Part shown: piece by piece, positions 20,894 to 38,523 of the stretch | Layout of the letters: the number at the start of each line of letters is the position of its first letter | How positions within the stretch are numbered: the stretch's first letter is position 1 | NCBI RefSeq assembly: GCF_001427125.1 | Contig: NZ_LMGK01000025.1 | Span: 297,234 to 361,233, forward strand | DNA: 64,000 nucleotides | Direction of reading: 5' to 3' | From: Pseudomonas sp. Root562 | GTDB taxonomy: Bacteria > Pseudomonadota > Gammaproteobacteria > Pseudomonadales > Pseudomonadaceae | Program-made: the position numbers and the translations under genes | The notes under the pieces: generated by a model | What the model was told of the DNA's origin: nothing | Database searches by the model: none | Seen by the model: the letters and a program-made list of their open reading frames with translations, nothing else

Positions 20894-21682
20894 TTACCCG
20901 GTGAAAGTCGGGGAGCGCTTTTCGATGAACGCCGTTACCGCCTCCCGGTGATCGGCCGTCTGGTGCGACAGCACCTGGAAGGTCGCCGACATTTCCAGCA
21001 GCGTGTCGAGTCGCGTATGCAAGGCTTCGCGCAACAACCGTTTGGCCAGACGCACGGCGTGGGGTGGGTTGGCAGCGATCGCCGCGGCAATTTCCCTGGC
21101 GTTGTCCAACAGTTGCCCGGCCGGGACGACGCGGGACACCAGGTTCCATTGCTCGGCCTGGCGGGCATCGATCGTTTGCCCGGTCAGGGTCAGTTCGGTG
21201 GCCCGCGACAAGCCGATGATGCGCGGCAACAACCACGCACCGCCGTCGCCGGGAATGATCCCGAGCTTGACGAAGCTTTCAGCAAACCTGGCCTGCTCGG
21301 ATGCCACGCGGATGTCGCACATGCAGGCCAGATCGAGGCCTGCACCAATGGCGGCGCCGTTGACCGCGGCGATGACTGGCACTTCCAGATTGAACAGCGC
21401 CAGTGGCAGTCGTTGAATGCCGGTGCGGTACTCCTGACGCAACTGCATGCCCGACATCTGCGCGTATCGATCCATGTCGCGAACGTTGCCGCCGGAGCAA
21501 AACGCGCTGCCTGCGCCCGTGATGATGACCGCGCGCACACTGCTGTCGCGCTCGATCCGTTCGATGGCTTCGAGGAACTCGGGAACAGCGCTATTGCCCG
21601 TCAAAGGGTTGCGGCGCTCGGGGTCGTTCATCGTCAGGGTGACGACATGCCCCTGTTGTTCGTACTTCAGAAACTCACTCAT
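20894..21682 (-). CDS. enoyl-CoA hydratase/isomerase (crotonase family)
   Basis: 262 residues. Oxyanion-hole segments are GAGSAFCSGGNVRDMD and AAVNGAAIGAGLDLACMCD. The position which is Glu in true hydratases (GGGLE) is Asp here (GAGLD), and the second catalytic position reads KLGIIPGDGG rather than PEx; this pattern is shared with PaaG/isomerase-like crotonases, so an isomerase or hydratase with a modified site is likely. It is the last gene of the operon that starts at 26248, nine bases after the acyl-CoA dehydrogenase gene. Confidence 0.85.
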   Translation of the reverse strand: MSEFLKYEQQGHVVTLTMNDPERRNPLTGNSAVPEFLEAIERIERDSSVRAVIITGAGSAFCSGGNVRDMDRYAQMSGMQLRQEYRTGIQRLPLALFNLEVPVIAAVNGAAIGAGLDLACMCDIRVASEQARFAESFVKLGIIPGDGGAWLLPRIIGLSRATELTLTGQTIDARQAEQWNLVSRVVPAGQLLDNAREIAAAIAANPPHAVRLAKRLLREALHTRLDTLLEMSATFQVLSHQTADHREAVTAFIEKRSPTFTG

Positions 21683-21691
21683 GGGGTGTCC

Positions 21692-22693
21692 TCAAGCAGT
21701 TTGTGACGGGGTAACAGTGCGCACGAATTCACTGGCGGTAACCTTCGGTTTCTCCAGCAATGCCTGGCCGACGATGTTGTTCCACCAGGTCTCCGAACCT
21801 TCGCTGACCCGCCATTGGTGCAGGCGCCGAGTGAACAGTTGCAGATCCAGCTCTTCGGTCACGCCGATAGCGCCGAACAATGCATGGGCAATGGCGGTCA
21901 CCTGTGGAACGGCCATGCTGGTGCGGGCCTTGGCGATGGCCGCGGGAATCAAATCGGGCACCGGACGGTCGCCTGCAAAGGCCAGTTCGGCAGCAATTCG
22001 GGAAGCGGCCACCTGCTCCGCCATGACGCTGAGCTGATGCTGGACCGCCTGGAATTTGCCGATGGCCTTGCCGAACTGGATCCGGTCATTGCAGTACTCA
22101 AGCGTCATGCCGAGCACCTTCTCCATCGCGCCGGCAATGGACGCTGCATGGATGGCAGCGTTAAACAGGCGAGCCTCTTGTCCCTTGCTTCCAAGAGACA
22201 CGCCGCCGGCGTCCTGCGGCCAATACAGCGTGGCGCACTGGCTGCCATGCACACCGTCGGGCTCGCGCCGTGCCTGACTGCAGTCAAGCAACAACAACTC
22301 GCCCTGCAGGTTCACCAAGGCAAAATCGGCAAGGGTGCCGTAGGCCAGGCGCGGTACGCACAAGCCATCATCGGCCTGCCGGAAAGCCGCGCCCGCCAGG
22401 GTCAACATGCCGCTCGGCGGTGCATGCGGGCAGTCACGCATCAGTGCCCGTGCGGCAATGCTTTGGGCTACCGGAAGCGGCAGTGCATGACGGCCGAAAG
22501 CGAGGAAAATCGGGAACAACGACTCCAGTGTCAGCCCCGCGCCATCCGCCACTTCCGGGGTCAACAACTCGAGAAACCCGCCGTTCTCCAATGCGCTCCA
22601 TAGCGCCGTGGCGCGGTCGCCGTTTTCAACCGCGCGAACCAGCGCCGGGGTGCACAAGTCAGTCAGTATTTTCTCAATGGCTTCAGTGAACAT
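21692..22693 (-). CDS. acyl-CoA dehydrogenase-like subunit, short
   Basis: 333 residues, shorter than the 380 of normal members. The helical N-domain and C-domain are recognisable (DRIQFGKAIGKFQAVQHQLSVM is the typical C-domain start), but the middle beta domain is reduced. At the end it has IAHALFGAIGVTEEL in place of QLHGGxG, and no 'GGTxE' segment; that segment is in the partner encoded 21 bases upstream (RGGTREILRGMIARG). The two therefore look like a second heteromeric acyl-CoA dehydrogenase, as with the pair at 10070/11226. Whether this subunit binds FAD by itself is doubtful. Confidence 0.82.
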   Translation of the reverse strand: MFTEAIEKILTDLCTPALVRAVENGDRATALWSALENGGFLELLTPEVADGAGLTLESLFPIFLAFGRHALPLPVAQSIAARALMRDCPHAPPSGMLTLAGAAFRQADDGLCVPRLAYGTLADFALVNLQGELLLLDCSQARREPDGVHGSQCATLYWPQDAGGVSLGSKGQEARLFNAAIHAASIAGAMEKVLGMTLEYCNDRIQFGKAIGKFQAVQHQLSVMAEQVAASRIAAELAFAGDRPVPDLIPAAIAKARTSMAVPQVTAIAHALFGAIGVTEELDLQLFTRRLHQWRVSEGSETWWNNIVGQALLEKPKVTASEFVRTVTPSQTA

Positions 22694-22714
22694 GACGATG
22701 TTTCCTATTCGATA

Positions 22715-23872
22715 TCAGCGCAGGCCAAGGCCACGGGCAATCATGCCGCGCAGGATTTCCCGGGTGCCGCCGCGCAACGAAAAAGTCGGCGCGACCTGGT
22801 TCAGGTAGGCGACGGTGCGGTACAGCTCATCGTCAATCGGAGCATCCGGATTCGCGCTGATGGCTGCGGCAATAGCGGCCGGAATCGATTGTTCGAATTC
22901 GGTACCGATGTCCTTGACCAACGCCGCTTCCACCACCGGACTCTGCCCTTGGGCGAGCAATGACGTCAGCGCCACCGATAAATTGCGCAGGCTGGTCAGT
23001 TGCGTAAGGAAACCGCCGAGCAACGCTGTCTCGGCGACGCTGGCACCGTTGCGGCGCAGGGTCTCTGCCCACAGGTCGAGCAGCACCACGCTGGAATAGA
23101 AGCGCTCCGGCCCGCTGCGCTCGAACGCCAGTTCGGCATTGACCTGTTTCCAGCCACTGCCCTCCTCGCCCACCAGCGCGTCCTCACCCAGCAGCACATC
23201 GTCGAACGCCACTTCGGAAAAATGCGCATCCCCGGCGAGGTCAACAATGGGCCGTACGCTGATGCCCGGTTGCTTGAGATCGATGATGAATTGCGACAGC
23301 CCGTTATGGCGGTCTTCCGGCGAACCGCTGGTGCGCACCAAAGCGATCATGTAATCGGCATGGTGGGCATTGGTGGTCCAGATCTTGCGACCGCTCAGGC
23401 GCCACCCGCCTTCGCAACGGCTGGCCCGACTGCGCACACTGGCCAGGTCGGAGCCTGAGTTGGGTTCGCTCATGCCGATGCAGAAAAACGCTTGTCCGGC
23501 ACAGATGCGCGGCAGGTAAAAATCTTTCTGTGCGTTGCTGCCGAACTTCAGGATCAACGGCCCGCTCTGGCGGTCAGCGATCCAGTGCGCCGCCACCGGG
23601 GCACCGGCCGACAGCAACTCTTCGACCAACACAAAGCGGCTGAAGGCATCGAGCCCGGCGCCACCGTAGGATTCGGGCAAGGTCAGACCGACCCAGCCAC
23701 GCTGTGCCAGTTTGCGACTGAAAGCGGCGTCGAAACCGGTCCAGCTGCGTGCCCGCACATCGGCCGCAACCATTGGCAAGTGCTCGGCCAGAAAGCTTTT
23801 GACTTCGGCCCGAAAGGCCTGCGCGTGGTCGGGCAACGCGGTCAAGCGGAAGGCGTCGAGCAGGCTGCTCAC
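22715..23872 (-). CDS. acyl-CoA dehydrogenase, partner of the short subunit
   Basis: 385 residues. The flavin-binding middle domain is intact (CIGMSEPNSGSDLASVRSRA, LSGRKIWTTNAHHADYM). The C-terminal signature is FSLRGGTREILRGMIARGL; the QLHGG motif is absent. The start codon overlaps the stop of the thiolase gene (ATGA), so translation is coupled. Together with the next gene it probably forms an alpha2-beta2 flavoenzyme acting on a bulky acyl-CoA. Confidence 0.87.
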   Translation of the reverse strand: MSSLLDAFRLTALPDHAQAFRAEVKSFLAEHLPMVAADVRARSWTGFDAAFSRKLAQRGWVGLTLPESYGGAGLDAFSRFVLVEELLSAGAPVAAHWIADRQSGPLILKFGSNAQKDFYLPRICAGQAFFCIGMSEPNSGSDLASVRSRASRCEGGWRLSGRKIWTTNAHHADYMIALVRTSGSPEDRHNGLSQFIIDLKQPGISVRPIVDLAGDAHFSEVAFDDVLLGEDALVGEEGSGWKQVNAELAFERSGPERFYSSVVLLDLWAETLRRNGASVAETALLGGFLTQLTSLRNLSVALTSLLAQGQSPVVEAALVKDIGTEFEQSIPAAIAAAISANPDAPIDDELYRTVAYLNQVAPTFSLRGGTREILRGMIARGLGLR

Positions 23873-25077
23873 TGGGCACCCCCGTTGACTTTACCGTACA
23901 GCGTCACCACGCACGCCCCACCCAGACCGAGGTTATGCGCCATGGCCAGGCGTGCGCCCTCGACCTGTCGCTGATCGGCGTTGCCGCGCAATTGCTGGGT
24001 CAACTCGTAGCACTGTGCCAGACCGGTGGCGCCCAGTGGGTGGCCCTTGGAAAGCAGGCCACCGGATGGGTTGACGACAATTTGTCCGCCGTAGGTATTG
24101 TCGCCGTCCATGACGAATTTTTCCGCGCCGCCTTCGGGGCAAAACCCCAGCGACTCGTAGCAGATCACTTCGTTCTGGGCGAAGCAGTCGTGCAGCTCGC
24201 AGACGTCGATGTCTTGTGGTCCGACGCCCGCCTTTTCGTACACCTGGCCGACGGCGGCATGGGTCATGTGCGTGCCGACCCAATCGAGCATTGACGGTTC
24301 TTCGAAGTTGAAGGATTGCGGCGTGTCCGTGGTCATCGCCTGGGCGACGATTTCCACGTCACGACGCAAGCCATGCTTTTTCGCGAAACGTTCGGAGACC
24401 AGAATCGCCGCCGCGCCACCGCAGGTCGGCGGACATGCCATCAGACGGGTCATGACGCCTGGCAGGATTACCGGGTCGTTCATCACGTCTTCGACACTGA
24501 GCACCTTGCGAAACAAAGCGAGCGGGTTGTTGGCGGCATGACGGCTGGCCTTGGCGCGTACCGCGGCGAAGGTTTCCATCTTGCAGCCGTATTTGTCCAT
24601 GTACTCGCGCCCGGCACCGCCAAAGGTACGGATGGCCTGCGGCATGCCCTCCATATCGGCGGTCAGGCCACGCAGAATCGGCAGGAAACGCTCGCGGGTC
24701 GGCGGGCGGTCGTCCCAATGGGATTTCAAAGCGCCGGCCTGCATTTGTTCGAAGCCGACCGCCAGCACGCAATCGGCAGAACCGGATTCAATGGCCTTGC
24801 GCGCCAGGAACAGCGCAGTGGAGCCGGTCGAGCAATTGTTGTTGACGTTGACCACCGGAATCCCGGTCATGCCGATTTCGTACAGCACGGTCTGACCGCA
24901 GGTGGAGTCGCCATAGACGTAACCGGCGTAAGCCTCCTGGATCAGGCTGTAATCGATCGCCGCATCGACCAGGGCGAGACGTATCGCTTCGGCCCCCATC
25001 TGCACGTAGGTCGGGCTGTCGCTGGGCTTGCGGAACGGGATCATGCCGACGCCGGCAACCAGTACTTTTTCGCTCAT
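23869..25077 (-). CDS. SCP-x type thiolase / lipid-transfer family
   Basis: 402 residues from the ATG at 25077 (AGGTGAC upstream). The active-site cysteine is Cys82 (VNNNCSTGSTALF); the C-terminal catalytic His is in SKGHPLGATG and the second Cys in LGLGGACVVT, so all thiolase residues are present. SCP-x thiolases cleave 3-ketoacyl-CoAs with 2-methyl branches in peroxisomes, and bacterial relatives act in sterol side chains; the family also includes aldolases, which have lost residues found here. It follows an acyl-CoA dehydrogenase (31 bases) as does its paralogue at 36438, forming a repeated two-gene module. Confidence 0.9.
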   Translation of the reverse strand: MSEKVLVAGVGMIPFRKPSDSPTYVQMGAEAIRLALVDAAIDYSLIQEAYAGYVYGDSTCGQTVLYEIGMTGIPVVNVNNNCSTGSTALFLARKAIESGSADCVLAVGFEQMQAGALKSHWDDRPPTRERFLPILRGLTADMEGMPQAIRTFGGAGREYMDKYGCKMETFAAVRAKASRHAANNPLALFRKVLSVEDVMNDPVILPGVMTRLMACPPTCGGAAAILVSERFAKKHGLRRDVEIVAQAMTTDTPQSFNFEEPSMLDWVGTHMTHAAVGQVYEKAGVGPQDIDVCELHDCFAQNEVICYESLGFCPEGGAEKFVMDGDNTYGGQIVVNPSGGLLSKGHPLGATGLAQCYELTQQLRGNADQRQVEGARLAMAHNLGLGGACVVTLYGKVNGGAQ

Positions 25078-25108: not shown

Positions 25109-26248
25109 TCACAACTGGCGCGCGATGAGTTCGCGCAGCACTTCGCTGGTGCCACCGAAAACCCGGGTCACGCGCATGTCGACGAAGGCGCGGGCGATCG
25201 GGTACTCCATCATGTAGCCGTAACCTCCATGCAACTGGACCATGTCGTCGATGCACTTCCACAGGGTTTCAGTGGCCAGGAGCTTGGCGATGGCCGACTC
25301 CTGGACCGTGAGGCGACGACGCATGTGTTCGCCGATGTAGTGATCGATGGTCAGGCGCACGGCCGTGGCCTGGGCCTTGATGTCGGCGAGCTTGAATTTG
25401 GTGTTCTGGAAGTCCCAGACGGTCTGGTTGAACGCCTTGCGATCCTTCACGTACTCGATGGTCTGTTCCAGCAGGCGTTCGAGTTTGGCGGCGCTGTACA
25501 ACGCGATCACCAGGCGCTCCTGCGGCAGCTCTTCCATCAGGTGCATGAAGCCTTTGTTTTCCTCACCGAGCAGGTTGCCCACCGGCACGCGCACGTTGTC
25601 GAAGAACAGCTCGGCGGTGTCGGCGGCATGCTGGCCGACCTTTTCCAGCTTGCGCCCGCGACGGAAACCTTCGCGGTCGCACTCGACCATGATCAGGCTG
25701 CAGCCCTTGGCGCCGGCACTCGGATCGGTCTTGCAGACGACCACCACCATGTCGCAGGTCAGGCCGTTGCTGATGAAGGTCTTGCTGCCATTGATCACCC
25801 ATTCGTCGCCGTCACGCACGGCGGTGGTGCGGATCGCCTTGAGGTCCGAACCGGTGCCCGGTTCAGTCATCGCCACGGCCAGAACGGTTTCGCCGGTGCA
25901 GATTTTCGGCAGCCATTTGTGTTTCTGCTCTTCGGTGCCCAGACGCACGATATAGGGCGCGACGATGTCCGAATGCACACCCAGGCTCCAGCCCGAAACC
26001 CCGGCGCGGTACAGCTCTTCGATCAACACCGCAGAGTGACCGAAGTCACCGCCGCCACCGCCGTATTCGGTCGGCACGGTGAGGCACAGCAGATTGTGGC
26101 GGCCAGCCTTGAGCCAGGTTTCCCGGTCAACCTGCCCGGCCTCGTCCCACTGAGCCTGTTTGGGCAAGCATTCACGTTCGAAAAAACGCCGCGCAGTTTC
26201 ACGCAGCATTTCGTGGTCTTCACGGTAGACGGTACGGTTGATATGCAT
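25109..26248 (-). CDS. acyl-CoA dehydrogenase, homomeric type
   Basis: 379 residues from the ATG at 26248 (MHINRTVYREDHEM; GGAGAG upstream). All signatures are in one chain: MTEPGTGSDLKAIRTTA, NGSKTFISNG, and QLHGGYGYMMEYPIAR followed by FGGTSEVLRELIAR, so a normal homotetramer is expected. It is the first gene of the operon 26248-20894, with a regulon palindrome 80 bases upstream. Its near copy at 35269 has the same length and the same gene behind it, pointing to an internal duplication. It should form 2-enoyl-CoA with ETF as electron acceptor. Confidence 0.92.
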   Translation of the reverse strand: MHINRTVYREDHEMLRETARRFFERECLPKQAQWDEAGQVDRETWLKAGRHNLLCLTVPTEYGGGGGDFGHSAVLIEELYRAGVSGWSLGVHSDIVAPYIVRLGTEEQKHKWLPKICTGETVLAVAMTEPGTGSDLKAIRTTAVRDGDEWVINGSKTFISNGLTCDMVVVVCKTDPSAGAKGCSLIMVECDREGFRRGRKLEKVGQHAADTAELFFDNVRVPVGNLLGEENKGFMHLMEELPQERLVIALYSAAKLERLLEQTIEYVKDRKAFNQTVWDFQNTKFKLADIKAQATAVRLTIDHYIGEHMRRRLTVQESAIAKLLATETLWKCIDDMVQLHGGYGYMMEYPIARAFVDMRVTRVFGGTSEVLRELIARQL

Positions 26249-26434: not shown

Positions 26435-27958
26435 TTATTTGCGCAGTTCTCGCTTGAGCACTTTGCCCGCAGCCGACAGCGGCAGTTCGGCGCGGAATTC
26501 GACGGTTTTCGGGCATTTGTAGGGCGCGATGAACTCGCGGCAGTATCGGCGCAATTGTTCTTCGTCGACCTGCGCATCAGGCTTGCGCACCACGACCGCG
26601 TGCACCGCCTCACCCCATTGTTCATGGGGAATGCCGATCACCGCGCACAGCGCCACGGCCGGGTGCCGGGCCAGGACGTTTTCGACTTCCGCCGAGTAAA
26701 CATTTTCGCCGCCGCTGACGATCATGTCCTTGAGGCGGTCGACTATGAACAGGTAGCCCTGTTCGTCCATGTATGCGGCGTCACCGGTGTACAACCATCC
26801 GTCACGCAATGCCTTGGCGGTTTCTTCGGGTCTGTTCCAATAGCCCTGCATGATGTTCGGCCCACGCACGATGATCTCGCCGACCGTGCCACGCGCAACC
26901 TCCCGGCCTTGCGGATCGACGATCTTCACATAGACCCCCAACCCGCCACGCCCGACCGAGCGCGACAAACCACGCTTGCGCGCGTCCGGCGTGTGGTTCC
27001 AGGGCAGATTGCTCGACACCACCGGGCACGCTTCAGTCAGCCCGTAAGAATGGGAAAGTTCGATATCCGGAAGTCTGGCCAACACGTGCTCGACCATTTC
27101 ACCGGCGCTGGGAGACGCGCCGTAGGTCAGTCGCCTCAAGCTGCTGAGGTCACGCCGAGCAAAGTCTGGATGGGCCAGCAGCGCGAGAATCATGGTCGGC
27201 ACCAGCAGCGTTTCGGTGATCTGTTCACGCTCGATCACCTGCAGCACTTCACCCGCGTCGAAACTCGCCACCAGCACATGGCTTTCACCGGCCAGCAACT
27301 GAATCAGCGCCCGCGCCATGCCGGCGACATGGAACAGCGGCGCCACATGCAACAGTCGACCGTCACGGATTGGCGGCATGTCAACCATGCGCGGCATGCA
27401 TGCCGACCACAGGTTCAGGTGCGATTGCATGACGCCCTTGGGAAACCCGGTGGTACCGCCGGTGTACATGATGCAGGCAAGGTCTTCACCCCCGCGTCCG
27501 GCATCTTCGACCGGTGCCGCCTGTGCCAGCAGTTGCTCGAAACCGAGCATGCCCACCGGCACCTGGCCCTCCCCGGCGTAGATGAAGCGCGGCGCGTGGC
27601 GGGCGCTCTTGCGGATGTTCTCGGCCAACGCGGCGAAGTGCTCATCGACGATCAGAATCCCGGTCGCACAATCGTCCAGCGAAAAGACGATCTCCGGCAC
27701 ACTCCAGCGCGTGTTGATCGGGTTGAGCACGCCACCGCCCCACCAGACGCCCATGATGTACTCCAGATAACGGTCGCTGTTGAGTGCCAGCATGCCAACC
27801 CGGTCACCCGCTTGCATTCCCAGCTGTTGCAAGGCGCCCGCCAGGCGAGCCACGCGCTCACCAAACTGGCGGTAGGTCTGACGCCGATCACCGAATACCG
27901 TCGCAAGCTGATGCGGATTTTGCTGCAGGGTGCGTTGCAGGCATTGGGTCATGTACAT
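26435..27958 (-). CDS. acyl-CoA synthetase (AMP-forming)
   Basis: 507 residues. The ATP/AMP loop is YTGGTTGFPKGVMQS (about residue 175), the second motif is YTGDAAYMDEQGYLFIVDR, the hinge is DRLKDMIVSGGENVYS and the catalytic Lys is in SAAGKVLKRELRK at the very end. It would activate a carboxylic acid to its CoA ester. It is closely similar to the protein at 28365, including the first residues (MYMTQ/MYLTQ), which supports the chosen start. Its 5' end overlaps the thioesterase gene by 10 bases. Last gene of the operon 31975-26435. Confidence 0.92.
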   Translation of the reverse strand: MYMTQCLQRTLQQNPHQLATVFGDRRQTYRQFGERVARLAGALQQLGMQAGDRVGMLALNSDRYLEYIMGVWWGGGVLNPINTRWSVPEIVFSLDDCATGILIVDEHFAALAENIRKSARHAPRFIYAGEGQVPVGMLGFEQLLAQAAPVEDAGRGGEDLACIMYTGGTTGFPKGVMQSHLNLWSACMPRMVDMPPIRDGRLLHVAPLFHVAGMARALIQLLAGESHVLVASFDAGEVLQVIEREQITETLLVPTMILALLAHPDFARRDLSSLRRLTYGASPSAGEMVEHVLARLPDIELSHSYGLTEACPVVSSNLPWNHTPDARKRGLSRSVGRGGLGVYVKIVDPQGREVARGTVGEIIVRGPNIMQGYWNRPEETAKALRDGWLYTGDAAYMDEQGYLFIVDRLKDMIVSGGENVYSAEVENVLARHPAVALCAVIGIPHEQWGEAVHAVVVRKPDAQVDEEQLRRYCREFIAPYKCPKTVEFRAELPLSAAGKVLKRELRK

Positions 27959-28365
27959 GGTGTCTGGCCTTTCCAGGTGGTGAAGACGCCATTGGCACGC
28001 AGGACCAGACGCTCGCCGACCTTCAACAGGCAGCAGGCGCTTAAAAACGTGCCGCTGCTCTTGAGCACTTGCACATGCGCCTCGAGCCAGTCGCCTTCGC
28101 GCACCGGGCCGAGGTAATCGACATTCAGATTGACCGTCACCGCCACCGACTGCGACACCGAATGGCGCCGCAAAATCACGCCGAACGCGCTGTCAGCGAC
28201 GGTGGCGAGGAAGCCGCCGTGGGCGATGCGCACGTAATTGAGGTGCTGCGGTTCCAGACGCACCGCCAGGATCGGCAGCACTTCATGCAAATAAAATTCG
28301 CCACAGCTGCGCAGGAACCCCGAGCGTTGTTCCAGCGCGGTGAAGCCCTCGGGGATCGTCGCCAT
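27949..28365 (-). CDS. hotdog-fold thioesterase (PaaI-like)
   Basis: 138 residues. The family core is YVRIAHGGFLATVADSAFGV, where the HGG loop caps the active site and Asp acts at the helix, followed by VAVTVNLNVDYLGPVREGDWL. The start overlaps the stop of the acyl-CoA synthetase gene upstream as TGATG, with AGGGGTGA upstream. A thioesterase between two acyl-CoA ligase genes probably frees CoA from stalled or unwanted acyl-CoAs. Substrate length not predictable. Confidence 0.85.
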   Translation of the reverse strand: MATIPEGFTALEQRSGFLRSCGEFYLHEVLPILAVRLEPQHLNYVRIAHGGFLATVADSAFGVILRRHSVSQSVAVTVNLNVDYLGPVREGDWLEAHVQVLKSSGTFLSACCLLKVGERLVLRANGVFTTWKGQTPCT

Positions 28366-29921
28366 CAGCTCACCCCTCGATCCTTGCCAGCCCAAAACGG
28401 CTCACGCAGATCGCGCTTGAGCACTTTGCCGGCACCGGACAGCGGCAACGCGGCGCGGAACTCGACCGATTTCGGCGTCTTGTAGCCGGCGATCTGCCGT
28501 CGGCAATGTTCGATAATCTCTGTGCCAGGCACTTCGTGATCGGGCTTGAGCACGATTACTGCGTGCACCGCTTCGCCCCATTGCGCGCAGGGAATGCCGA
28601 TCACTGCACAGGCGGCGACGGCCGGATGACTGGAAATCGCGCTCTCGACCTCACCGGAGTAAACGTTCTCGCCACCGCTGACGATCATGTCCTTGAAGCG
28701 GTCGACGATGTAGATGTAACCGTCGTCGTCCATGTAAGCGCCGTCGCCGGTGTGCATCCAGCCGCCACGCAAAGCCTTGGCGGTTTCCTCGGGTTTGTTC
28801 CAGTAACCGAGCATGATGTTCGGGCCACGCACCAACACTTCGCCCACCGTACCGCGCGGCACTTCGTTGTCATGTTCGTCGACGATGCGCACGGTCACGC
28901 CCAGCCCGGGGCGCCCCGCCGAACGCAGTCGGCCATTGGCGATACCTTCGGGGCCGTGATTTTCCGGACCGTTCGCTGAGATCGGCGGCGCGGCTTCAGT
29001 CATGCCGTAACCCTGGGTGAACTCGACATTCGGCAAGGCCTTGAGGGCCAGTTCCAGCAACGGCACGGCTATCGGCGACGCACCGTAGGTCAGGCTGCGC
29101 AGGCAACTGAGGTCATGGCGAGAGAATTGCGGGTGCATGATCAAGGCCTGGATCATGGTCGGCACGATCAGAATGTCAGTGATGCGCTCGCGCTCGATGG
29201 TTTGCATCACGTTCAGCGGGTCGAAGGCGGGGACGAAAATGCTCGGCAACCCCAGCAACGAGATCAGGATCACCCGCGACAGCGCTGCAAGGTGGAACAT
29301 CGGCGCGATGTGCAGGGTCAGTGCATCGGCCGGCACCGGAACATCGGCGGCACGCGCGACGGCGGCGGTCCACAGGTTCATGTGTGACTGCATCACGCCC
29401 TTTGGCAGGCCGGTGGTGCCGCCGGTGTACATGATGCTCGCCAGGTCGTCGCCGCCACGAAAGGCATCGTCCACCGGCTCGGCATCGGCAATCAGCTGCT
29501 CGTAGGACAACATGCCGTCAGGCGTCGGGCCTTCGCCGATATGGATCAGCAGTGGCCGCACCCTGGCGCTGCCGGCAATGCTTTGGGCCATCGCCAGGAA
29601 TGTGTCGTCGATCATCAGGATCCGCGTGTCGCAGTCGTCCAGCGAATAGACGATTTCCGCCACGCTCCAGCGAATGTTGACCGGGTTGACCACGCCACCG
29701 CCCCACCAGGTGGCCAGGTAATACTCGAGAAAGCGGTCTGAGTTCAGACCGAGCAGGCCCACACGGTCGCCGGTGTGCATGCCCAGTTGCTGCAAGGCGC
29801 CAGCCAGGCGAGCGACGCGCTCGGCCAACTGTGCGTAGGTGTGGCGCCGGTCACGAAAGACCGTGGCGAGGGCATGAGGGCGTTGCTGCAAGACACGGTG
29901 CAGTCCTTGGGTCAGATACAT
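28365..29921 (-). CDS. acyl-CoA synthetase (AMP-forming), paralogue
   Basis: 518 residues. Motifs: MYTGGTTGLPKGVMQSH, TGDGAYMDDDGYIYIVDRF, KDMIVSGGENVYSGEVE and the terminal catalytic Lys in GAGKVLKRDLREP. Sequence and layout repeat those of the synthetase at 26435, so the two arose by duplication and were separated by the thioesterase gene. The acid pocket region (about 230-330) differs most, so they may prefer different acids or successive chain lengths. An AACAATAA site precedes the ribosome binding site (CAGGAAA). Confidence 0.92.
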   Translation of the reverse strand: MYLTQGLHRVLQQRPHALATVFRDRRHTYAQLAERVARLAGALQQLGMHTGDRVGLLGLNSDRFLEYYLATWWGGGVVNPVNIRWSVAEIVYSLDDCDTRILMIDDTFLAMAQSIAGSARVRPLLIHIGEGPTPDGMLSYEQLIADAEPVDDAFRGGDDLASIMYTGGTTGLPKGVMQSHMNLWTAAVARAADVPVPADALTLHIAPMFHLAALSRVILISLLGLPSIFVPAFDPLNVMQTIERERITDILIVPTMIQALIMHPQFSRHDLSCLRSLTYGASPIAVPLLELALKALPNVEFTQGYGMTEAAPPISANGPENHGPEGIANGRLRSAGRPGLGVTVRIVDEHDNEVPRGTVGEVLVRGPNIMLGYWNKPEETAKALRGGWMHTGDGAYMDDDGYIYIVDRFKDMIVSGGENVYSGEVESAISSHPAVAACAVIGIPCAQWGEAVHAVIVLKPDHEVPGTEIIEHCRRQIAGYKTPKSVEFRAALPLSGAGKVLKRDLREPFWAGKDRGVS

Positions 29922-30820: not shown

Positions 30821-31975
30821 TCAGGCCTTGAAGCCCAGGCCAAGCGCATGCAGACGCTCGATGGCGAGGTTGTCGAAACCCCAGTCACGCAGCGCATCGT
30901 GCCCGTGTTCGCCGCGTTGCGGCGCCGTTCGTGGCGGGGCCGAGGGCGTGCCGAGAAAACGCGGGGCCGGCACTGGCTGGACCACGCCGTCAACCTCAAT
31001 GAAGCTGCCACGGGCCACGCTGTGCGGGTGTTCGGCGGCTTCGGCCAGGCCCAGCACCGGCACCACGCAGGCGTCGCTGCGGGCAAACGCTTCGGCCCAA
31101 TCTGCCCGGGTACGGCTGAGGAAAGCTGCGGTAAACGCCTCACGCAAGCGCGGCCAACCGGCGCGATCGTGCTGCCTCGGCAGATCGGCGTTTGCCAGCC
31201 CGAGAATCTCCAGCATTTCGGCGTAGAAGCGCGCCTCGATCGGCCCGATCGACATGTGCTGGCCGTCGAGGGTTTGGTAGGTGTCGTACCAGGGCGCACC
31301 GCCATCGAGCAGGTTGCTGCCACGCTGCTCGGTCCAATGACCGCCGGCCAACAGGCCCCAGATCACCGAGCCCAACTGCGCCGCGCCTTCGGTCATGGCG
31401 GCATCGACCACCTGTCCCGCCCCGCCACGCTGCACGTTAACCAGCGCCGCCAGCACGCCCATGGCCAGCAGCATGCCGCCACCGCCGTAATCGCCGACCA
31501 GGTTCAAGGGCGGCACTGGTCGACCACCGGCCGGACCAATGGTGGACAGCACGCCCGACAACGCGATGTAGTTCAGGTCGTGGCCGGCGCGGTCGGCCAT
31601 CGGCCCGGTCTGGCCCCAACCGGTCATGCGTGCGTAAACCAACTGCGGGTTACGCGCCAACACCACCTCCGGGCCCAGGCCCAGGCGCTCCATGGTGCCG
31701 GGACGGAAACCTTCGATCAGCACGTCGGCGCGCTCGATCAGCTCCAGCGCGGCGGCGACACTTTCCGGGCGTTTCAGATCCAGAGTGACCGAGCGGCGGT
31801 TGCGGCCGGTGATGTCAGCGCGCTTGCCTTCAAATTTCGGCCCCAGGTCGCTGGCCTTGACCGGACGGTCGATACGCACCACGTCGGCGCCCATGTCCGC
31901 CAGCAGCATGGTGCCGAAAGGCGCCGGGCCGATGGCCTCAAATTCAACTACTCGAATGCCGCTCAGTACGCCCAT
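30821..31975 (-). CDS. alpha-methylacyl-CoA racemase (CaiB/BaiF family)
   Basis: 384 residues from the ATG at 31975 (GGAG seven bases upstream). It has the class III CoA-transferase fold, and the block GWGQTGPMADRAGHDLNYIAL followed by PPLNLVGDYGGGG places it with alpha-methylacyl-CoA racemases and not with the oxalate/carnitine transferases: His132 and Asp162 match the His126/Asp156 pair of the mycobacterial racemase, offset by six. The enzyme inverts the 2-methyl centre of a branched acyl-CoA so that a stereospecific dehydrogenase can use it. It is the first gene of the operon, with the perfect palindrome 86 bases upstream, shared with the divergent LuxR gene. Confidence 0.88.
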   Translation of the reverse strand: MGVLSGIRVVEFEAIGPAPFGTMLLADMGADVVRIDRPVKASDLGPKFEGKRADITGRNRRSVTLDLKRPESVAAALELIERADVLIEGFRPGTMERLGLGPEVVLARNPQLVYARMTGWGQTGPMADRAGHDLNYIALSGVLSTIGPAGGRPVPPLNLVGDYGGGGMLLAMGVLAALVNVQRGGAGQVVDAAMTEGAAQLGSVIWGLLAGGHWTEQRGSNLLDGGAPWYDTYQTLDGQHMSIGPIEARFYAEMLEILGLANADLPRQHDRAGWPRLREAFTAAFLSRTRADWAEAFARSDACVVPVLGLAEAAEHPHSVARGSFIEVDGVVQPVPAPRFLGTPSAPPRTAPQRGEHGHDALRDWGFDNLAIERLHALGLGFKA

Positions 31976-32172: not shown

Positions 32173-34992
32173 ATGGACAAACCCCGCAAGTCCAATGCCC
32201 TGGACACGCCCGCCCGCCTGGTCTTGAATCCGACTCAGTCGCCGATCGTCAGCACCAAACTGATTCCGCCGCGCAGTGCCGGACGCCTGATTTCCCGCGA
32301 GCGCCTGCAAGATCAGATGCTCAAGGCCCGCCGCCAGCGCTGCATCGTGCTCAAGGGGCCGGCAGGCTGCGGCAAGACCTCGACGTTGATTGCCTGGCGT
32401 CAGGCGCTGCTGCCGCTGGGCTTCGATGTGGCCTGGTTGACCCTGTCGGCCGACGACAACGAATTGACCCGTTTCCTCGACTATTTGCTGGCCAGCCTCG
32501 GACAGGTTGACCCTGTGCTTGTTCACGAGGCCACCCAGCTGGAAGGTCGCGGGATCGACAGCGAAGCGGTGGAACGTACGGTCATCACCCTGGTGCGCAG
32601 CATTGCCAGCCGTTCGCGGGAATTGGTGCTGGTGCTCGATGACCTGCACCATTTGACCGATGTCGGCATTCACCAGGCCTTGCAATGGCTGATCGACTAC
32701 GCCCCGGCCAATCTGCATCTGGCCCTGGTATCGCGCAGTGCCGTGCCGTTGTCGCTGGCGCGGTTGCGCAGCCAGGAACTGGTGCTGGACCTGAACCTGC
32801 GGGATTTGCGCTTCACGGCCACCGAATCGGAACAGTTTCTCAAGGCACAACTGGGCGATATCAGCACCCAGGAGGCCAAGCGCATGCATGAGCTGACCGA
32901 CGGTTGGGTGGCCGGGCTGCAACTGCTCGCGGTCAGTCGCAAGAAAAACCGCTCGCTCGTCACGTCCATCGACCAGACACAAATGCGCGATGACCAGGCG
33001 TTCGCGAAGTTCTTTGAAGTCGAGGTGTTGTCCCACCTGTCGCCGACCGATCTCGACTTGATGTTGCTGATGGCGGTCTGCAACCGCTTTTGCGCCTCAT
33101 TGTGCGCCGCCCTCAGCGGCAACCCGGAAGCGGTGCGCGAGGCCAACGCCTTGCTGGCGCGACTGGAACGGGACAACCTGTTCCTGATTCCGGTAGACAG
33201 TGCCGCGCCGGAAACCTGGTATCGCCTGCACCCGCTGCTGCGCGAAACCCTGCTCAAGTATTTCGATTCGCGCAGCCCGGCCGAACAACAGGCGGTGCAC
33301 GCCCGCGCATGGGCCTGGTTTCGTGATCACCAGCATCTGGATGAGGCGGTGCACCATGCGGTGATGGCCGGCGCCCCGGATGCCGCCGCCGACCTGGTGC
33401 AGCAACATGCTGAAGCGCTGTATGCCCATGGCGACCTGCGGATGTTGATCGAACTGGTTCGCCTGCTGCCTGTCGAGCAAGTGCAGGCGCGGGTGAAACT
33501 GCGCATTCTCAAGGCGCGGATGCAACTCTATGCCAGGGATTTCGTGGCCTGCGCCAATAGCCTTGATCAGTTGTTCCTCGACGTGCCCGAAGCTGACGTC
33601 CACGATCGATTCATGATCGCGATCCTGCGGGCCTCACTGGCGCTGCAACGGGATGACACCGATGCGGCGATGACCGTCCTGCCGCAATTGCTCGATCCGC
33701 CACCAGGCAGCAACAGTGTCGCCCTTGGCTCATGCGCCAACATCCTTTCCTGGCTCTACATGCACCGGGGTGAATACGAGAAGGCGCGTCAGGTGCAACT
33801 CGAGCGCCCCCTGCTGCTGATCAATGGCGAACCGCTGCTGGGCACCACCGCCGGCAGCCTTCAGGGCCGCTGCATGATTGGCTTGAGCCATGCCCTCGAA
33901 GGCCAGATGAAGCAGGCCGAGCGGGTGTATCGGGATGTGATGCATGAGGCCGCACACTGTGGCAAGGCCGGCGCCGATGCAACCTACCTCTCCGCCGCGT
34001 TGCTGGGTGAGGTGCTGTACGAAACCAATGACGTCGATGCTGCCTTCAAGCTCTTGTCGGGATGGGTCGATATTCTCGAGCGGATTTCCATTCCGGATTC
34101 GGTGTTGCGTGTGTTGCAGGTGCTGTGGAACGTGCAATGGCTGGCGGGCAATCATCAGGAAGCCCTGGCTTATGTCGAACGGCTCGATGAGTACGCCATC
34201 AAACTCGGTCTGGAACGCCTGCAAGCCTACTGCCTGACCTGGCAGGTGCGATGGCTGATGATTCTCGGAGAGCACTCGCAGGCCCGGACCAAACTGGCGC
34301 GCCTTGAAGCCATCGATGCACGCCACCCGGATGCCGGGCACAGTGCACTCAAGGAAATCCACATCCTGGCCGAGAATGCGCGGGCGCGCTGGCAAATTCA
34401 GCAGGGCGACCTGGACGGTGCGTTGAAACGCATCGAGCAACTGATCGAAACCTGTGAACGGCACCGCCGTCAGTTGGGCACCGTTCGCCTGTTGGTGTTG
34501 AGCGCAGTGATCGAGTCTCAGCGCGGCAATACCGATGCCGCCCGTGATCACGTCATGGAAGCACTGCGCCGCGGTCAACGCTTCGGCCTGTTGCGCAGCT
34601 TGCTCGACGCCCACCCCGATGCGTTGATGCTGATCTCGGACATCGCCAGCAAAGAAACCCTGGACCCACTGCTTGCCTTTTACGTCGAGCGCCTGCAGGC
34701 GGCGCAGGTCACTGCGCCCGCCGTGCCAGGCGACAAACCCTCCCCGCCCCCGACAAACAAGCCTCTCACCAGCGGCATGGAGCCCCTGAGCGAACGGGAA
34801 ATCGAAGTGGTGCGCTTGCTCGCCCAGGCCCTGCCCAACAAAAAAATCGCCCGTGCTCTGGGGCTGTCTCCGGAAACCGTGAAATGGCACCTGAGCCATA
34901 TCTACAGCAAACTCGGGGTCAACAGCCGCGACGAAGCGGTGGCGCGGGTGCGGGATCTCGAATCCCAGGAAAATGCCGCAAGCCGACACTGA
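32173..34992 (+). CDS. MalT-like LuxR-family regulator, full length
   Basis: 939 residues from the ATG at 32173, the size of MalT. The opening [21 protein letters not shown] is the typical start of LAL regulators; Walker A is GPAGCGKTS (62-70), Walker [12 protein letters not shown]. The next 600 residues are helical repeats (TPR-like superhelix) for inducer or partner binding, and the C-terminal LuxR domain is [17 protein letters not shown] plus [19 protein letters not shown]. It has no REP insertion, unlike the related gene at 15188, and differs from it strongly in sequence. It shares the perfect palindrome with the racemase operon. Most likely the pathway activator; which of the two regulators, or the TetR protein, binds the palindrome cannot be told. 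Confidence 0.9.
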
Positions 34993-34994
34993 AT

Positions 34995-35159: not shown

Positions 35160-35268
35160 CGTTCCGGCCAGCCCCCGACCCTATCGTAACCCTCAGTTCA
35201 AAGGCGCAGCTCGCGCCTTGCATCAGCGCCCGGCCCAGGCCGGGCCCGTGATCATTGAGGAGTCTTGC

Positions 35269-36408
35269 GTGCATATCGCCCGAACCGTTTTCCGCGACGA
35301 CCATGAGATGTTTCGCACCACCGTGCGGCGTTTTTTCGAGCGCGAATGCCTGCCGCGCCAGGCAGCCTGGGACAAGGCCGGTCAGGTCGACCGGGAAACC
35401 TGGCTCAAGGCCGGGCGCGAAGGCTTGCTGGGCATCACCCTGCCCCCCGAGTACGGTGGAGGCGGCGGGGATTTCGGCCACTGTGCAGTGTTCAACGAAG
35501 AGTTCGCCCGGGCTGGCGTGAGCGGTGCTTACTTCAGCATGCACTCCGACGTCATTGCTCCTTATATCAATCGTTGCGGCAACGAAGAACAGAAACAGAA
35601 ATGGCTGCCGGGCATTTGCTCCGGCGAGACCATCCTGGCGATCGCCATGACCGAACCCGGCACCGGCAGCGACCTCAAGGCTGTGCGTACCACCGCCGTG
35701 CGCGACGGTGACGAATACGTCATCAATGGCAGCAAGACCTTTATCAGCAACGGCCTGACCGCCGATCTGGTGATTGTCGTGTGCAAGACCGATCCGTCCG
35801 CGGGCGCCAAGGGCATCAGCCTGATCGCCGTGGAAGCCAGCCGTGCCGGCTTCAAGCGCGGGCGCAAGCTGGAGAAGGTCGGCCAGGCTGCAGCCGATAC
35901 CGCCGAGCTGTTCTTCGACAATGTCCGCGTGCCAGTGGGCAATCGCCTTGGTGAAGAAGGCCTGGGCTTCACCTATCTGATGGGTGAACTGCCGCAGGAG
36001 CGGTTCTCCATCGCCGTGTCCGCTGCCGCCAAGCTCGAGCGCCTGCTGGAGCAAACGCTCGAGTACGTGAAGGACCGCAAAGCGTTCAACCAGACCGTAT
36101 GGGACTTCCAGAACAGCAAGTTCAAACTCGCCGACATCAAGGCCCAGGCCACCGCCATGCGCGTGATGGTCGACTACTACCTGGGCGAGCACATGCGCCG
36201 GCGCCTGACCCTCGAAGAAGCGGCGATCGCCAAGCTCTACACCACCGAAACCCTGTGGAAATGCATCGACGACATGGTCCAGCTGCATGGCGGCTACGGC
36301 TACATGATGGAGTACCCGATCGCCCGAGCGTTCGTCGACTGCCGCGTCAATCGCATCTACGGCGGAACCAGCGAAGTCATGCGCGAACTGATTGCGCGCA
36401 AGCTCTGA
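35269..36408 (+). CDS. acyl-CoA dehydrogenase, homomeric type, GTG start
   Basis: 379 residues, same length as the paralogue at 25109 and alike throughout (VHIARTVFRDDHEMFR against MHINRTVYREDHEMLR). The GTG at 35269 with GAGGAG six bases upstream is taken as start because it matches the paralogue; the frame is open to 35116 but that part carries repeat-derived sequence. Signatures: MTEPGTGSDLKAVRTTA, QLHGGYGYMMEYPIAR and YGGTSEVMRELIARKL in one chain. First gene of the operon 35269-40794. Probably acts on a different chain length or stereoisomer from its paralogue. Confidence 0.92.
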   Translation: MHIARTVFRDDHEMFRTTVRRFFERECLPRQAAWDKAGQVDRETWLKAGREGLLGITLPPEYGGGGGDFGHCAVFNEEFARAGVSGAYFSMHSDVIAPYINRCGNEEQKQKWLPGICSGETILAIAMTEPGTGSDLKAVRTTAVRDGDEYVINGSKTFISNGLTADLVIVVCKTDPSAGAKGISLIAVEASRAGFKRGRKLEKVGQAAADTAELFFDNVRVPVGNRLGEEGLGFTYLMGELPQERFSIAVSAAAKLERLLEQTLEYVKDRKAFNQTVWDFQNSKFKLADIKAQATAMRVMVDYYLGEHMRRRLTLEEAAIAKLYTTETLWKCIDDMVQLHGGYGYMMEYPIARAFVDCRVNRIYGGTSEVMRELIARKL

Positions 36409-36413
36409 TCCTC

Positions 36414-36427
36414 AAAAACAAAAAAAG
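36414..36427 (+). promoter_or_regulatory. candidate Hfq/Crc site before the thiolase
   Basis: CAAAAACAAAAAAAGG overlaps the ribosome site AAAGGAA of the thiolase gene; several AANAANAA matches. Confidence 0.4.
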
Positions 36428-36437
36428 GAAATACACG

Positions 36438-37622
36438 ATGAGCCATAAGGTATTCGTTGCTGGCGTCGGCATGATCCAGTTCAAGAAACCGGGGACCAAC
36501 GAGCCCTACGATGTCATGGGTGAACAGGCGATCCGCCAGGCCCTGGCTGACTCGGGCGTGGACTTCGCTGACATCCAGCAGGCCTACGCCGGCTACGTCT
36601 ACGGCGATTCCACCTGCGGTCAGAAAGCCTTGTACCGCGTGGGCATGACCGGCATCCCGCTGATTAACGTCAACAACAACTGCGCCACCGGTTCCAGCGC
36701 CCTGTTCCTCGCCCGTCAGGCCGTGGCCAGCGGCGCCGTGGACTGCGCCCTGGCGTTTGGTTTCGAACACATGAACCCGGGCGCGTTGAAATCTGCCTGG
36801 CCCGATCGCGCACCGGCCACTGAGCGTGCCTTGGTGTTGGCCAACGAACTGATCGGCATGCCTGACCTGCCCAATGCCATCCGCCAGTTCGGCGGCGCCG
36901 GCTACGCGCACATGCAAAAGTACGGCACCCGACTGGAAACCTTCGCCAAGATCCGCGCCAAGGCCAGCCGTCATGCGGCCAATAACCCGCTGGCGGTGTT
37001 CCGCAACGTGGTGAGCGCCGAAGAAGTCATGGCCGCGCCGATGCTGTGGGAAGGCGTGATGACCCGCCTGATGGCCTGCCCGCCGACCTGTGGCGCTGCT
37101 GCCGCCATCGTGGTGTCCGAGGCCTTCGCGAAAAAACACGGCCTGCGCACCGACGTGTTGATGGCCGGCCAGGCCCTGACCACTGACCTGCCGAGCACCT
37201 ACGACACCAAGGACATGATCCGCGTGGTCGGTTTCGACATGACGCGCATGGCTGCCGACATCGCCTACAACCAGGCCGGTATTGGCCCGCAAGACATCGA
37301 CGTGATCGAGTTGCACGACTGCTTCGCGCAGAACGAATTGCTGACCTACGAAGGCCTGGGCCTGTGTGCCGAAGGCGCAGGCGAGCAATTGGTCAACGAC
37401 GGCGACAACACCTACGGCGGCAAATGGGTCACCAACCCGTCCGGTGGCTTGCTCTCCAAAGGACATCCGCTGGGCGCCACCGGCCTGGCCCAGTGCTACG
37501 AACTGACCCATCAACTGCGCGGTACCGCCGAGCAACGTCAGGTGCAGAACGCGCGAATTGCGGTGCAGCACAACCTCGGCCTGGGCGGCGCCTGCGTGGT
37601 GACCGTGTACCAGAAGAACTGA
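36438..37622 (+). CDS. SCP-x type thiolase, paralogue
   Basis: 394 residues. Cys82 in VNNNCATGSSALF, the His of SKGHPLGATG and the Cys of LGLGGACVVT give a complete thiolase site. It is a clear paralogue of the enzyme at 23869 (AYAGYVYGDSTCGQ is shared), and like it stands directly behind a homomeric acyl-CoA dehydrogenase. A second thiolase with the same order of genes suggests two rounds of chain shortening with different acyl-CoAs. The start codon has AAAGGAA upstream. Confidence 0.9.
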   Translation: MSHKVFVAGVGMIQFKKPGTNEPYDVMGEQAIRQALADSGVDFADIQQAYAGYVYGDSTCGQKALYRVGMTGIPLINVNNNCATGSSALFLARQAVASGAVDCALAFGFEHMNPGALKSAWPDRAPATERALVLANELIGMPDLPNAIRQFGGAGYAHMQKYGTRLETFAKIRAKASRHAANNPLAVFRNVVSAEEVMAAPMLWEGVMTRLMACPPTCGAAAAIVVSEAFAKKHGLRTDVLMAGQALTTDLPSTYDTKDMIRVVGFDMTRMAADIAYNQAGIGPQDIDVIELHDCFAQNELLTYEGLGLCAEGAGEQLVNDGDNTYGGKWVTNPSGGLLSKGHPLGATGLAQCYELTHQLRGTAEQRQVQNARIAVQHNLGLGGACVVTVYQKN

Positions 37623-37651
37623 CACGGCCGGCAATCCAGGGAGACATTTCG

Positions 37652-38092
37652 ATGATCGACAAGAAACACATCGGCAGACAACTGCCCACCTTCCTCGTCA
37701 ACGCCGAAGCAGGTCAATTGCGCTTCTTCGCCAAGGCCACCGGGGAAACCAACCCGATCTACTTCGACGAGCAAGCTGCACGTGATGCCGGCCACCCCAA
37801 CCTGCCACTGCCGCCGACCTTTCTGTTCTCGCTGGAGTTCCAGATTCCGTCGAACGCCTGGCGTGACGAACTGGGCATCGTCACCGCGCGCATCCTGCAC
37901 GGTGAAGAATCCTTCCGCTACCACCATATGGCCTACGCCGGCGACACGTTGCGCTTCGAGGTGCGCATCGCCGACATCTACGACAAGAAAGGCGGTGCCC
38001 TGGAATTCGTGGTGCGCGAAACCCGAGTCACCAATCAGCACGGTGAGCACGTCGCGGATCTGCGCAGCGTGCTCGTGCAGCGCAACAGCTGA
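37652..38092 (+). CDS. MaoC-like hydratase, N-terminal (FAS1-type) subunit
   Basis: 146 residues. MIDKKHIGRQLPTFLVNAEA and FFAKATGETNPIYFDEQAA are the start of the dehydratase N-domain found in fungal fatty-acid synthases and in HadA-type proteins. It has the hotdog fold pattern but no catalytic D-x4-H motif of the MaoC core; that is in the protein encoded 14 bases downstream. Both are thus likely to form a heterodimeric (R)-specific 2-enoyl-CoA hydratase. GGGAGA eight bases upstream supports the ATG. Confidence 0.8.
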   Translation: MIDKKHIGRQLPTFLVNAEAGQLRFFAKATGETNPIYFDEQAARDAGHPNLPLPPTFLFSLEFQIPSNAWRDELGIVTARILHGEESFRYHHMAYAGDTLRFEVRIADIYDKKGGALEFVVRETRVTNQHGEHVADLRSVLVQRNS

Positions 38093-38106
38093 AGCGGAGA
38101 ACACTG

Positions 38107-38523
38107 ATGAACGCCATAAGCCTGGAAAAAATCAACATCGGCGACACCCTGCCGCCACTGGCCCTCCCACCGATCAACCGCACCACCCTGGCTCTGTTTG
38201 CCGGTGCGTCGGGTGATTACAACGCCATTCACATCGACACCGATTACGCGCGCCGGGCGGGCATGCCCGATGTGTTCGCCCACGGCATGTTGTCGATGGC
38301 CTACCTCGGTCGCCTGCTGACCCAATGGGTCGACCAGCGCCAGTTGCGCGAGTTCGGCGTGCGCTTTCTTGGCATCACCCACCTGGGTCACCAGATCACC
38401 TGCAGCGGCACTGTCGTCGACCGCTTCGAGGTCGAGGGCGAGCAACGGATCAAGGTCGAAGTGCGCACCACCAATCAATACGGCGAGACCAAGATCGTTG
38501 GCGACGCCGTGATCGCTCTCTAA
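38107..38523 (+). CDS. MaoC-like hydratase, catalytic subunit
   Basis: 138 residues. The hydratase motif is GDYNAIHIDTDYARRAGMP with the catalytic Asp/His pair, then VFAHGMLSMAYLG. It hydrates 2-enoyl-CoA in the (R) sense, the opposite of the crotonase route. Its small size and adjacency to the FAS1-type protein point to a two-chain enzyme. GGAG seven bases upstream. Confidence 0.85.
   Translation: MNAISLEKINIGDTLPPLALPPINRTTLALFAGASGDYNAIHIDTDYARRAGMPDVFAHGMLSMAYLGRLLTQWVDQRQLREFGVRFLGITHLGHQITCSGTVVDRFEVEGEQRIKVEVRTTNQYGETKIVGDAVIAL

Follow-up and report, generated by a model that had tools for sequence, protein, structure and literature searches.

A gene cluster of Pseudomonas sp. Root562 probably enables the bacterium to take up a lipophilic compound, oxidize its end alcohol and aldehyde to the acid, form the CoA ester and then shorten a chain with alpha-methyl branches in a (3R)-type beta-oxidation resembling that of peroxisomes. 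The cluster lies in a stretch of 64,000 nucleotides (the window; positions 297,234 to 361,233 of contig NZ_LMGK01000025.1, assembly GCF_001427125.1), which is part of a 6.2-Mb draft genome (G000, contig C25). Judged from syntenic relatives, it spans positions ~10070-39378 of the window, with a linked sulfatase gene at 41509-43095 (Table 1). An earlier note on this DNA had confined the gene set to 20894-38523, which is too short given the unit carried by the syntenic relatives; the genes that it named are all present as long open reading frames (ORFs).

The core appears to encode all steps of a (3R)-type spiral acting on alpha-methyl acyl-CoAs: a racemase, a dehydrogenase of the long-chain acyl-CoA dehydrogenase (LCAD) type, a HadA/HadB-type pair of MaoC-fold proteins, a short-chain dehydrogenase/reductase (SDR) and an SCP2-thiolase of type 1. 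The racemase scores 406 bits against the racemase MCR (1x74, presumably from Mycobacterium tuberculosis) and 129 bits against the best non-racemase chain, which places it on the racemase side and not among the class III CoA-transferases. Aligned to MCR, whose catalytic residues are presumably His126, Asp156 and Glu241, the protein has the His132 (in GHDLNY) and Asp162 (in GDYGGG) of which the earlier note spoke, together with Glu247 (in GPIE), and its predicted activity is the epimerization of 2-methylacyl-CoA. The two thiolases, described before as SCP-x thiolases with full catalytic residues, do have intact catalytic motifs, with the catalytic Cys, HDCF and GHP in place: both carry NNNC, HDCF, GGLLSKGHPLGATG and HNLGLGG, and a solved SCP2-thiolase type 1 aligned with copy 2 is alike except for HNIGLGG and GGLISKGHPLGATG. 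Copy 2 is closest to SCP2-thiolase type 1 (6hsj, presumably from zebrafish, 453 bits; next solved family, 201 bits), and its 394 amino acids comprise thiolase domains only, with no C-terminal SCP2 lipid-transfer domain as in a full SCPx. For dehydrogenase copy 2, the joint-closest solved chains are 2pg0 (384 bits) and the mitochondrial LCAD 8w0t (379 bits), which we take to be from Geobacillus and human, respectively, and the next scores 271 bits; the catalytic Glu region LPQER of LCAD is kept in the alignment to 8w0t. The substrates of human LCAD include branched chains as well as THC-CoA, a C27 bile-acid intermediate (PMC11153573).

The (3R)-dehydrogenase-type SDR and the MaoC hydratase of the MFE-2 route are both present by sequence. 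They are separate ORFs, and no MFE-2-like fusion of dehydrogenase and hydratase in one chain was found. The SDR scores 216 bits against the (3R)-hydroxyacyl-CoA dehydrogenase 2et6, presumably from Candida tropicalis, with the next at 156 bits, and no 3-hydroxyacyl-CoA dehydrogenases other than SDRs occurred among the cluster proteins scanned. Both hydratase folds named earlier, crotonase and MaoC, are present, but the MaoC enzyme is made up of two genes, one resembling HadA and the other, with the motif GDYNAIH, resembling HadB. Classical enoyl-CoA hydratases have two glutamates as a rule. Since the crotonase-fold proteins ech1 and ech2 each seem, by eye, to lack one of them, the HadB-like protein is the only canonical hydratase seen, and ech1 and ech2 probably do other work. 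The stereospecificity of the (3R) route is likewise a prediction.

We infer the enzyme activities, their order and their stereochemistry from gene content, catalytic motifs, nearest solved relatives and synteny. Uptake of the lipophilic compound would come first, with the DUF1302 and DUF1329 proteins as probable uptake partners, and the sulfatase, where present, probably releases the alcohol by cleaving a sulfate ester. The alcohol dehydrogenase and then the aldehyde dehydrogenase would turn the end alcohol via the aldehyde to the acid, and the ligases would make the CoA ester. The racemase would convert 2R-methylacyl-CoA to the 2S form, to be desaturated by the LCAD-type dehydrogenase; the MaoC pair would hydrate the enoyl-CoA, the SDR would oxidize the (3R)-alcohol, and the SCP2-thiolase would release propionyl-CoA. 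Other rounds, or a bulky remainder, may fall to the second thiolase/dehydrogenase unit and the heteromeric dehydrogenases. This mechanism is supported by the alcohol and aldehyde dehydrogenase genes, which are kept in synteny, and by a core shared at 72-92% identity by Pseudomonas and Burkholderiales. The substrate probably arrives already oxygenated, since no P450 match was found in the host genome. There are three matches to the AlkB/desaturase family in that genome, one a DesA desaturase and one without an NCBIfam match at 1e-40, so that an alkane hydroxylase is neither shown nor excluded.

The minus strand of the cluster runs from a PimD/PimC-like pair of acyl-CoA dehydrogenases, through the alcohol and aldehyde genes, regulator 1, DUF1329, DUF1302, ech1, a second heteromeric dehydrogenase pair and the first thiolase and LCAD-type genes, to the ligases with their hotdog thioesterase, ech2 and the racemase; the plus strand runs from regulator 2 through the second LCAD-type and thiolase genes, the MaoC genes and the SDR to the TetR, short SDR-like and sulfatase genes. 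The GC content is 60-66% across 10-42 kb of the window and 56-62% in the flanks. The cluster is in part duplicated, given that its two dehydrogenase, thiolase and ligase copies are 80%, 65% and 63% identical, respectively. Always attached in the relatives read are the PimCD pair (where the stretch reaches that far), the alcohol and aldehyde dehydrogenases, DUF1329/1302, thiolase 1, dehydrogenase 1 and the ligases; regulator 1 is kept except in locus L131. The variable genes are ech1, the second heteromeric pair, hotdog, ech2, TetR, short SDR-like protein 2 (SDR2) and the sulfatase. A literature search of open-licence full texts plus titles and abstract openings found no account of such a Pseudomonas cluster.

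A collection scan with the racemase, of which the best 80 of 577 loci were kept, gave 17 loci at 72-92% identity and 63 at 52-59%. The 17 close loci belong to Pseudomonas, Variovorax, Cupriavidus, Caballeronia, Paraburkholderia and one Burkholderiaceae record. Regulator 2 lies near the racemase in all 17 and adjoins it in 13. Thirteen of the 17 have dehydrogenase 2, the SDR and both MaoC genes, and 12 have thiolase 2, so the gene set is not a chance assembly. Three of the four close loci without the core (L009, L016 and L021) end at contig ends, and the fourth (L017) has the thiolase 1/dehydrogenase 1 unit instead. The available flanks of the 63 distant loci, some of them short, held no thiolase or MaoC match (E 1e-10, half coverage), and eight of these loci have an LCAD-type dehydrogenase at 51-58% identity. 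The cluster is rare in the genus: among 398 sampled same-genus genomes, 8 have a racemase orthologue (at least 82% identity) and 11 a thiolase 2 orthologue (at least 87%), with the racemase present in 8 of those 11.

Several observations weigh against our reading of the cluster as a route for alpha-methyl branches. The racemase is absent at the cluster site in 3 of the 11 clusters (L126, L130 and L131, in genomes G286, G290 and G312), where a distant racemase elsewhere is possible; it is thus either not always needed or supplied from another place. Sulfatase relatives occur in 104 of the 398 genomes, most of them without this thiolase, and the sulfatase, TetR and SDR2 genes are missing beside some clusters. 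LCAD, SCP2-thiolase and MaoC enzymes are also able to use straight chains. The position of LCAD Pro132 is occupied by Ala in dehydrogenase copy 2 (aligned) and by Trp in copy 1 (by eye), and in LCAD this proline unwinds helix E and enlarges the cavity (PMC11153573). The proposal of an alpha-methyl-branched toolkit stands in that the racemase and thiolase, each nearest to solved branched-chain enzymes, the LCAD-type dehydrogenase and the (3R)-type SDR all fit it, but the racemase is not universal. The racemase-less gap between ech2 and regulator 2 is at 10742-10958 in L126, 10949-11258 in L130 and 12478-12659 in L131, and clusters with and without the gene form a natural set in which to test when a racemase is needed.

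The sulfatase bears on what the substrate may be. It belongs to the S1 family, and a second copy, 90% identical, lies elsewhere in the host genome. The broad spread of its relatives led initially to the view that it was an unrelated neighbour, which was overturned by a proximity count. The 24 genomes with SCP2-thiolase matches yielded 41 sulfatase matches, 15 of them no more than 30 kb from a thiolase locus where uniform placement would give 1.07, in a count that took the best three sulfatases and best four thiolases per genome and a distance chosen by the analyst; six of the 15 pairs represent one inherited place, and the other nine may in part do so too. Counted by thiolase locus, 15 of 47 have a sulfatase nearby and 32 have none. 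Of the nine, those in G387 C1, G312 and one in G281 all have a spacing of 15-16 kb and are possibly inherited together. The nine include pairs by the PimD end in G281, near thiolase-MaoC-MaoC-SDR cassettes in G043, G219 and G031, and in a second cluster of G387, and Caballeronia locus L022 has a 59% identical sulfatase 1.7 kb from the racemase. We take desulfation to be a likely part of several of these pathways. Sulfates had entered the earlier note only as test substrates; with sulfatases near such thiolases far above chance, a sulfate ester is now a leading clue to the substrate.

The same sulfatase link would suit the catabolism of straight-chain compounds or synthetic surfactants (branched alkyl sulfates, ethoxylates), with the racemase as a minor accessory, as its absence from 3 of 11 clusters would allow. 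The DUF1302 and DUF1329 pair of the cluster has a counterpart in PP_0765/PP_0766 of P. putida, both needed on Tween 20, PP_0765 being the DUF1302 protein, and the part of that paper available to us mentions neither a racemase nor an SCP2-thiolase (PMC10866462). The doubling of both the SCP2-thiolase type 1 and the LCAD-type dehydrogenase, the conserved MaoC/SDR route and a core common to Pseudomonas and Burkholderiales speak against surfactants, and we consider this explanation improbable.

An alternative within the branched-chain reading is that the cluster shortens a side chain of the C27 type, ending in a methyl branch, on a sterol or bile alcohol that is perhaps sulfated; the ring would be opened only where KshA and KstD are present and left alone by the host. 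This is possible, although it falls short of probable. KshA_C (PF19298) has matches in 72 of the 398 genus genomes at E 1e-20, and these are enriched both in genomes with SCP2-thiolase matches (17 of 24, against 55 of 374 others; p 5e-9) and in those with the cluster (8 of 11, against 64 of 387; p 8e-5), values that come from six splits, with a high-scoring class (E 1e-70 or better) set after the scores had been seen and with species kinship uncorrected. Of the genomes named for the 17 close racemase loci, 16 were searched (L019 was left out) and 12 have a KshA_C match, nine at E 2e-27 or better and three weak, in a set that overlaps the genus sample. Four of the 8 racemase genomes, the same four that have the high-scoring KshA class, also encode KstD-like proteins at 78-100% identity. 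In G031, KstD-like and KshA-like genes lie ~84-94 kb from a thiolase-MaoC-MaoC-SDR cassette with racemase and sulfatase (L135 and L136), all within ~110 kb. Heteromeric acyl-CoA dehydrogenases act on the cholesterol side chain (PMC11153573).

On the other side, no KshA_C match was found in the host genome, and its only KstD-like protein is a flavin adenine dinucleotide (FAD) protein of 36% identity; full 9,10-seco steroid degradation by this strain was set aside because of the missing KshA. Three of the 11 cluster genomes have no KshA_C match at 1e-20. Where KshA matches do occur, they are either on a different contig from the cluster or over 0.5 Mb away from it, and they can be sorted into two or three score classes, which may not share a function. 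Six KshA regions that were read hold no close copy of a cluster gene, only distant DUF1302, DUF1329, SDR and acyl-CoA dehydrogenase matches. The KstD-like reference protein scores 596 bits against a curated cut-off of 789, and two Rieske proteins tested had no NCBIfam model match at 1e-60. Because of these regions and scores, the co-occurrence is suggestive and not proof. No Sal/Shy-type aldolase was recognized among the scanned proteins, in which no search aimed at it was made. The statement that the locus is not for full sterol degradation accordingly agrees with the host genome, but sits less well with the enrichment of KshA-like Rieske genes in genomes that carry the cluster or its thiolase. 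Its companion, that ring dioxygenases and Baeyer-Villiger enzymes are lacking, is upheld among the window proteins scanned, which took in part of the window ORFs.

It is also conceivable, if somewhat unlikely, that the cluster degrades saturated acyclic isoprenoid alcohols or acids of the phytol or pristanic type, alongside an Atu cluster that removes beta-methyls. Such an Atu cluster does occur in the host genome (L123, C25:40000-59900), on the contig that holds the window and ~244-252 kb ahead of it, with AtuA (505 bits), an SDR, a carboxyltransferase, an acyl-CoA dehydrogenase and a biotin carboxylase, and a second carboxyltransferase lies beside an acyl-CoA dehydrogenase family gene at L115. 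The strain may thus combine beta-methyl and alpha-methyl removal. The reported lack of an Atu/Liu carboxylase is correct for the window, where carboxyltransferase PF01039 has no match, but not for the genome, which has five matches elsewhere. The alcohol and aldehyde dehydrogenases would fit isoprenoid alcohols, whereas bulky substrates are suggested by the heteromeric dehydrogenases and the KshA enrichment, and the common natural isoprenoid alcohols are not known to be sulfated. The racemase mutants of Arenskotter 2008 were reportedly of a Gordonia. As PMC8538451 relates from Arenskotter 2008, a rubber degrader could no longer grow on polyisoprene and related branched isoprenoids once its racemase gene was mutated. 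The accessible parts of other sources had less to offer: an Alcanivorax pristane proteome (PMC6850023) mentions no racemase, a Steroidobacter rubber paper (PMC5979037) contains none of the searched terms, and a cholesterol paper (PMC3691188) and an AMACR review (PMC7372137) added little.

The closest parallel to the route proposed here is the mammalian peroxisomal oxidation of branched chains and bile acids by AMACR, ACOX, MFE-2 and SCPx. By sequence, the cluster shares with it the racemase, the (3R)-type dehydrogenase and hydratase folds and the SCP2-thiolase, but it has separate genes in place of an MFE-2 fusion, a thiolase without SCP2 domain, an LCAD-type dehydrogenase instead of an oxidase and a two-subunit MaoC. 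Sterol side-chain degradation in M. tuberculosis likewise uses an MCR-type racemase, heteromeric acyl-CoA dehydrogenases and a two-subunit MaoC hydratase; the Root562 genome differs in having no P450 or KshA match and in having an SCP2-thiolase type 1 and LCAD-type dehydrogenases. The Atu/Liu terpene and leucine pathways share branched isoprenoid-type substrates, and Atu genes are in the same genome, but those pathways act on beta-methyls by biotin carboxylation and the window has no carboxyltransferase. Actinomycete rubber and isoprenoid catabolism with mcr shares the need for a racemase on methyl-branched isoprenoids (PMC8538451). Same-genus genomes have related thiolase-MaoC-MaoC-SDR cassettes at four further places (L132, L134, L136 and L137). 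A bacterial pathway family for alpha-methyl-branched lipids in sulfated form, for example bile-alcohol or sterol sulfates, joining a secreted sulfatase, alcohol/aldehyde oxidation and a complete peroxisome-type spiral and spread as this recurring cassette, with strains such as Root562 trimming the chain while leaving the ring closed, may be drawn from these observations, but we regard it as rather unlikely. The predicted activities of animal branched-chain oxidation (racemase, (3R) hydratase/dehydrogenase and SCP2-thiolase) are gathered here in a single bacterial cluster amenable to deletion and assay, and its genes may serve as markers for what becomes of branched, perhaps sulfated, lipids in the environment.

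Table 1. Genes of the cluster and its linked neighbours, with positions in the window.
Feature	Position	Strand	Basis
Acyl-CoA dehydrogenase, PimD-like small subunit, half of heteromeric pair	10070..11212	-	TIGR03203 336 bits, cut-off 653; kept in syntenic relatives
Acyl-CoA dehydrogenase, PimC-like large partner	11226..12533	-	TIGR03204 476 bits, cut-off 624; kept in relatives
Zinc alcohol dehydrogenase	12591..13673	-	Family scan; 90-97% identity in relatives read
Aldehyde dehydrogenase	13703..15058	-	Family scan (as 13703-15103); synteny
MalT/LuxR-type regulator 1	15188..17362	-	PF17874, PF00196; absent from L131
DUF1329, LolA-like, probable uptake partner	17499..18866	-	PF07044 506 bits
DUF1302, probable outer-membrane barrel for hydrophobic substrates	18893..20725	-	PF06980 568 bits
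Crotonase-fold ech1, PRK09245 group	20894..21682	-	436 bits, cut-off 354; absent in some relatives
Small subunit, second heteromeric acyl-CoA dehydrogenase (IpdE2-like C-terminal part)	21692..22693	-	Family scan; absent in L105/L106, L107/L108, L109
Large subunit, second heteromeric acyl-CoA dehydrogenase	22715..23872	-	Closest solved relative 4x28_A, 129 bits
SCP2-thiolase type 1, copy 1	23869..25077	-	NF006102 661 bits, cut-off 436; motifs
LCAD-type acyl-CoA dehydrogenase, copy 1	25109..26248	-	80% identical to copy 2
Acyl-CoA ligase 1	26435..27958	-	NF004837 515 bits, cut-off 476
Hotdog thioesterase	27949..28365	-	TIGR00369 42 bits, cut-off 37 (scanned as 27949-28395)
Acyl-CoA ligase 2	28365..29921	-	NF004837 506 bits; 63% identical to ligase 1
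Crotonase-fold ech2	29982..30785	-	Family scan
Alpha-methylacyl-CoA racemase (predicted)	30821..31975	-	406 bits to MCR 1x74; His132, Asp162, Glu247
MalT/LuxR-type regulator 2	32173..34992	+	Family scan; near racemase in 17/17 close loci, adjoining in 13
LCAD-type acyl-CoA dehydrogenase, copy 2	35269..36408	+	2pg0 384 bits, LCAD 8w0t 379, next 271
SCP2-thiolase type 1, copy 2	36438..37622	+	6hsj 453 bits, next family 201
MaoC-fold subunit, HadA-like, probably non-catalytic	37652..38092	+	Family scan, resemblance to HadA
MaoC hydratase subunit, HadB-like, GDYNAIH	38107..38523	+	Family scan, motif
SDR, probable (3R)-hydroxyacyl-CoA dehydrogenase	38554..39378	+	2et6 216 bits, next 156
TetR regulator, linked in part of relatives	39518..40165	+	FadR-like, 76 bits vs cut-off 200
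Short SDR-like protein 2, linked in part of relatives	40162..40794	+	ORF and synteny only
S1 sulfatase, CTAGR, probably secreted (N-terminus by eye), linked	41509..43095	+	PF00884 183 bits; closest solved 7aj0, 189 bits; association test

Outside the cluster proper, positions 8413-9429 of the window encode an AurF-like protein (30.8 bits against a Pfam cut-off of 29.6) beside an AraC regulator, a possible diiron oxygenase. It had no match in the relative loci compared, whose flanks past the PimD-like gene are short, which leaves a role as the missing oxygenase unsupported rather than rejected. Small proteins with a shared N-terminal motif, SDGLFDIEGR, are encoded beside such clusters in L133 (4624-5199), L134 (13484-14083) and L020 (20592-21146), and the L134 copy has no NCBIfam match at 1e-50. 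Loci L132 and L133 (G387 C1) together form a second, diverged cluster with a 47% identical racemase, three SCP2-thiolases, a MaoC pair, an SDR, a sulfatase, a PimCD pair and alcohol and aldehyde dehydrogenases.

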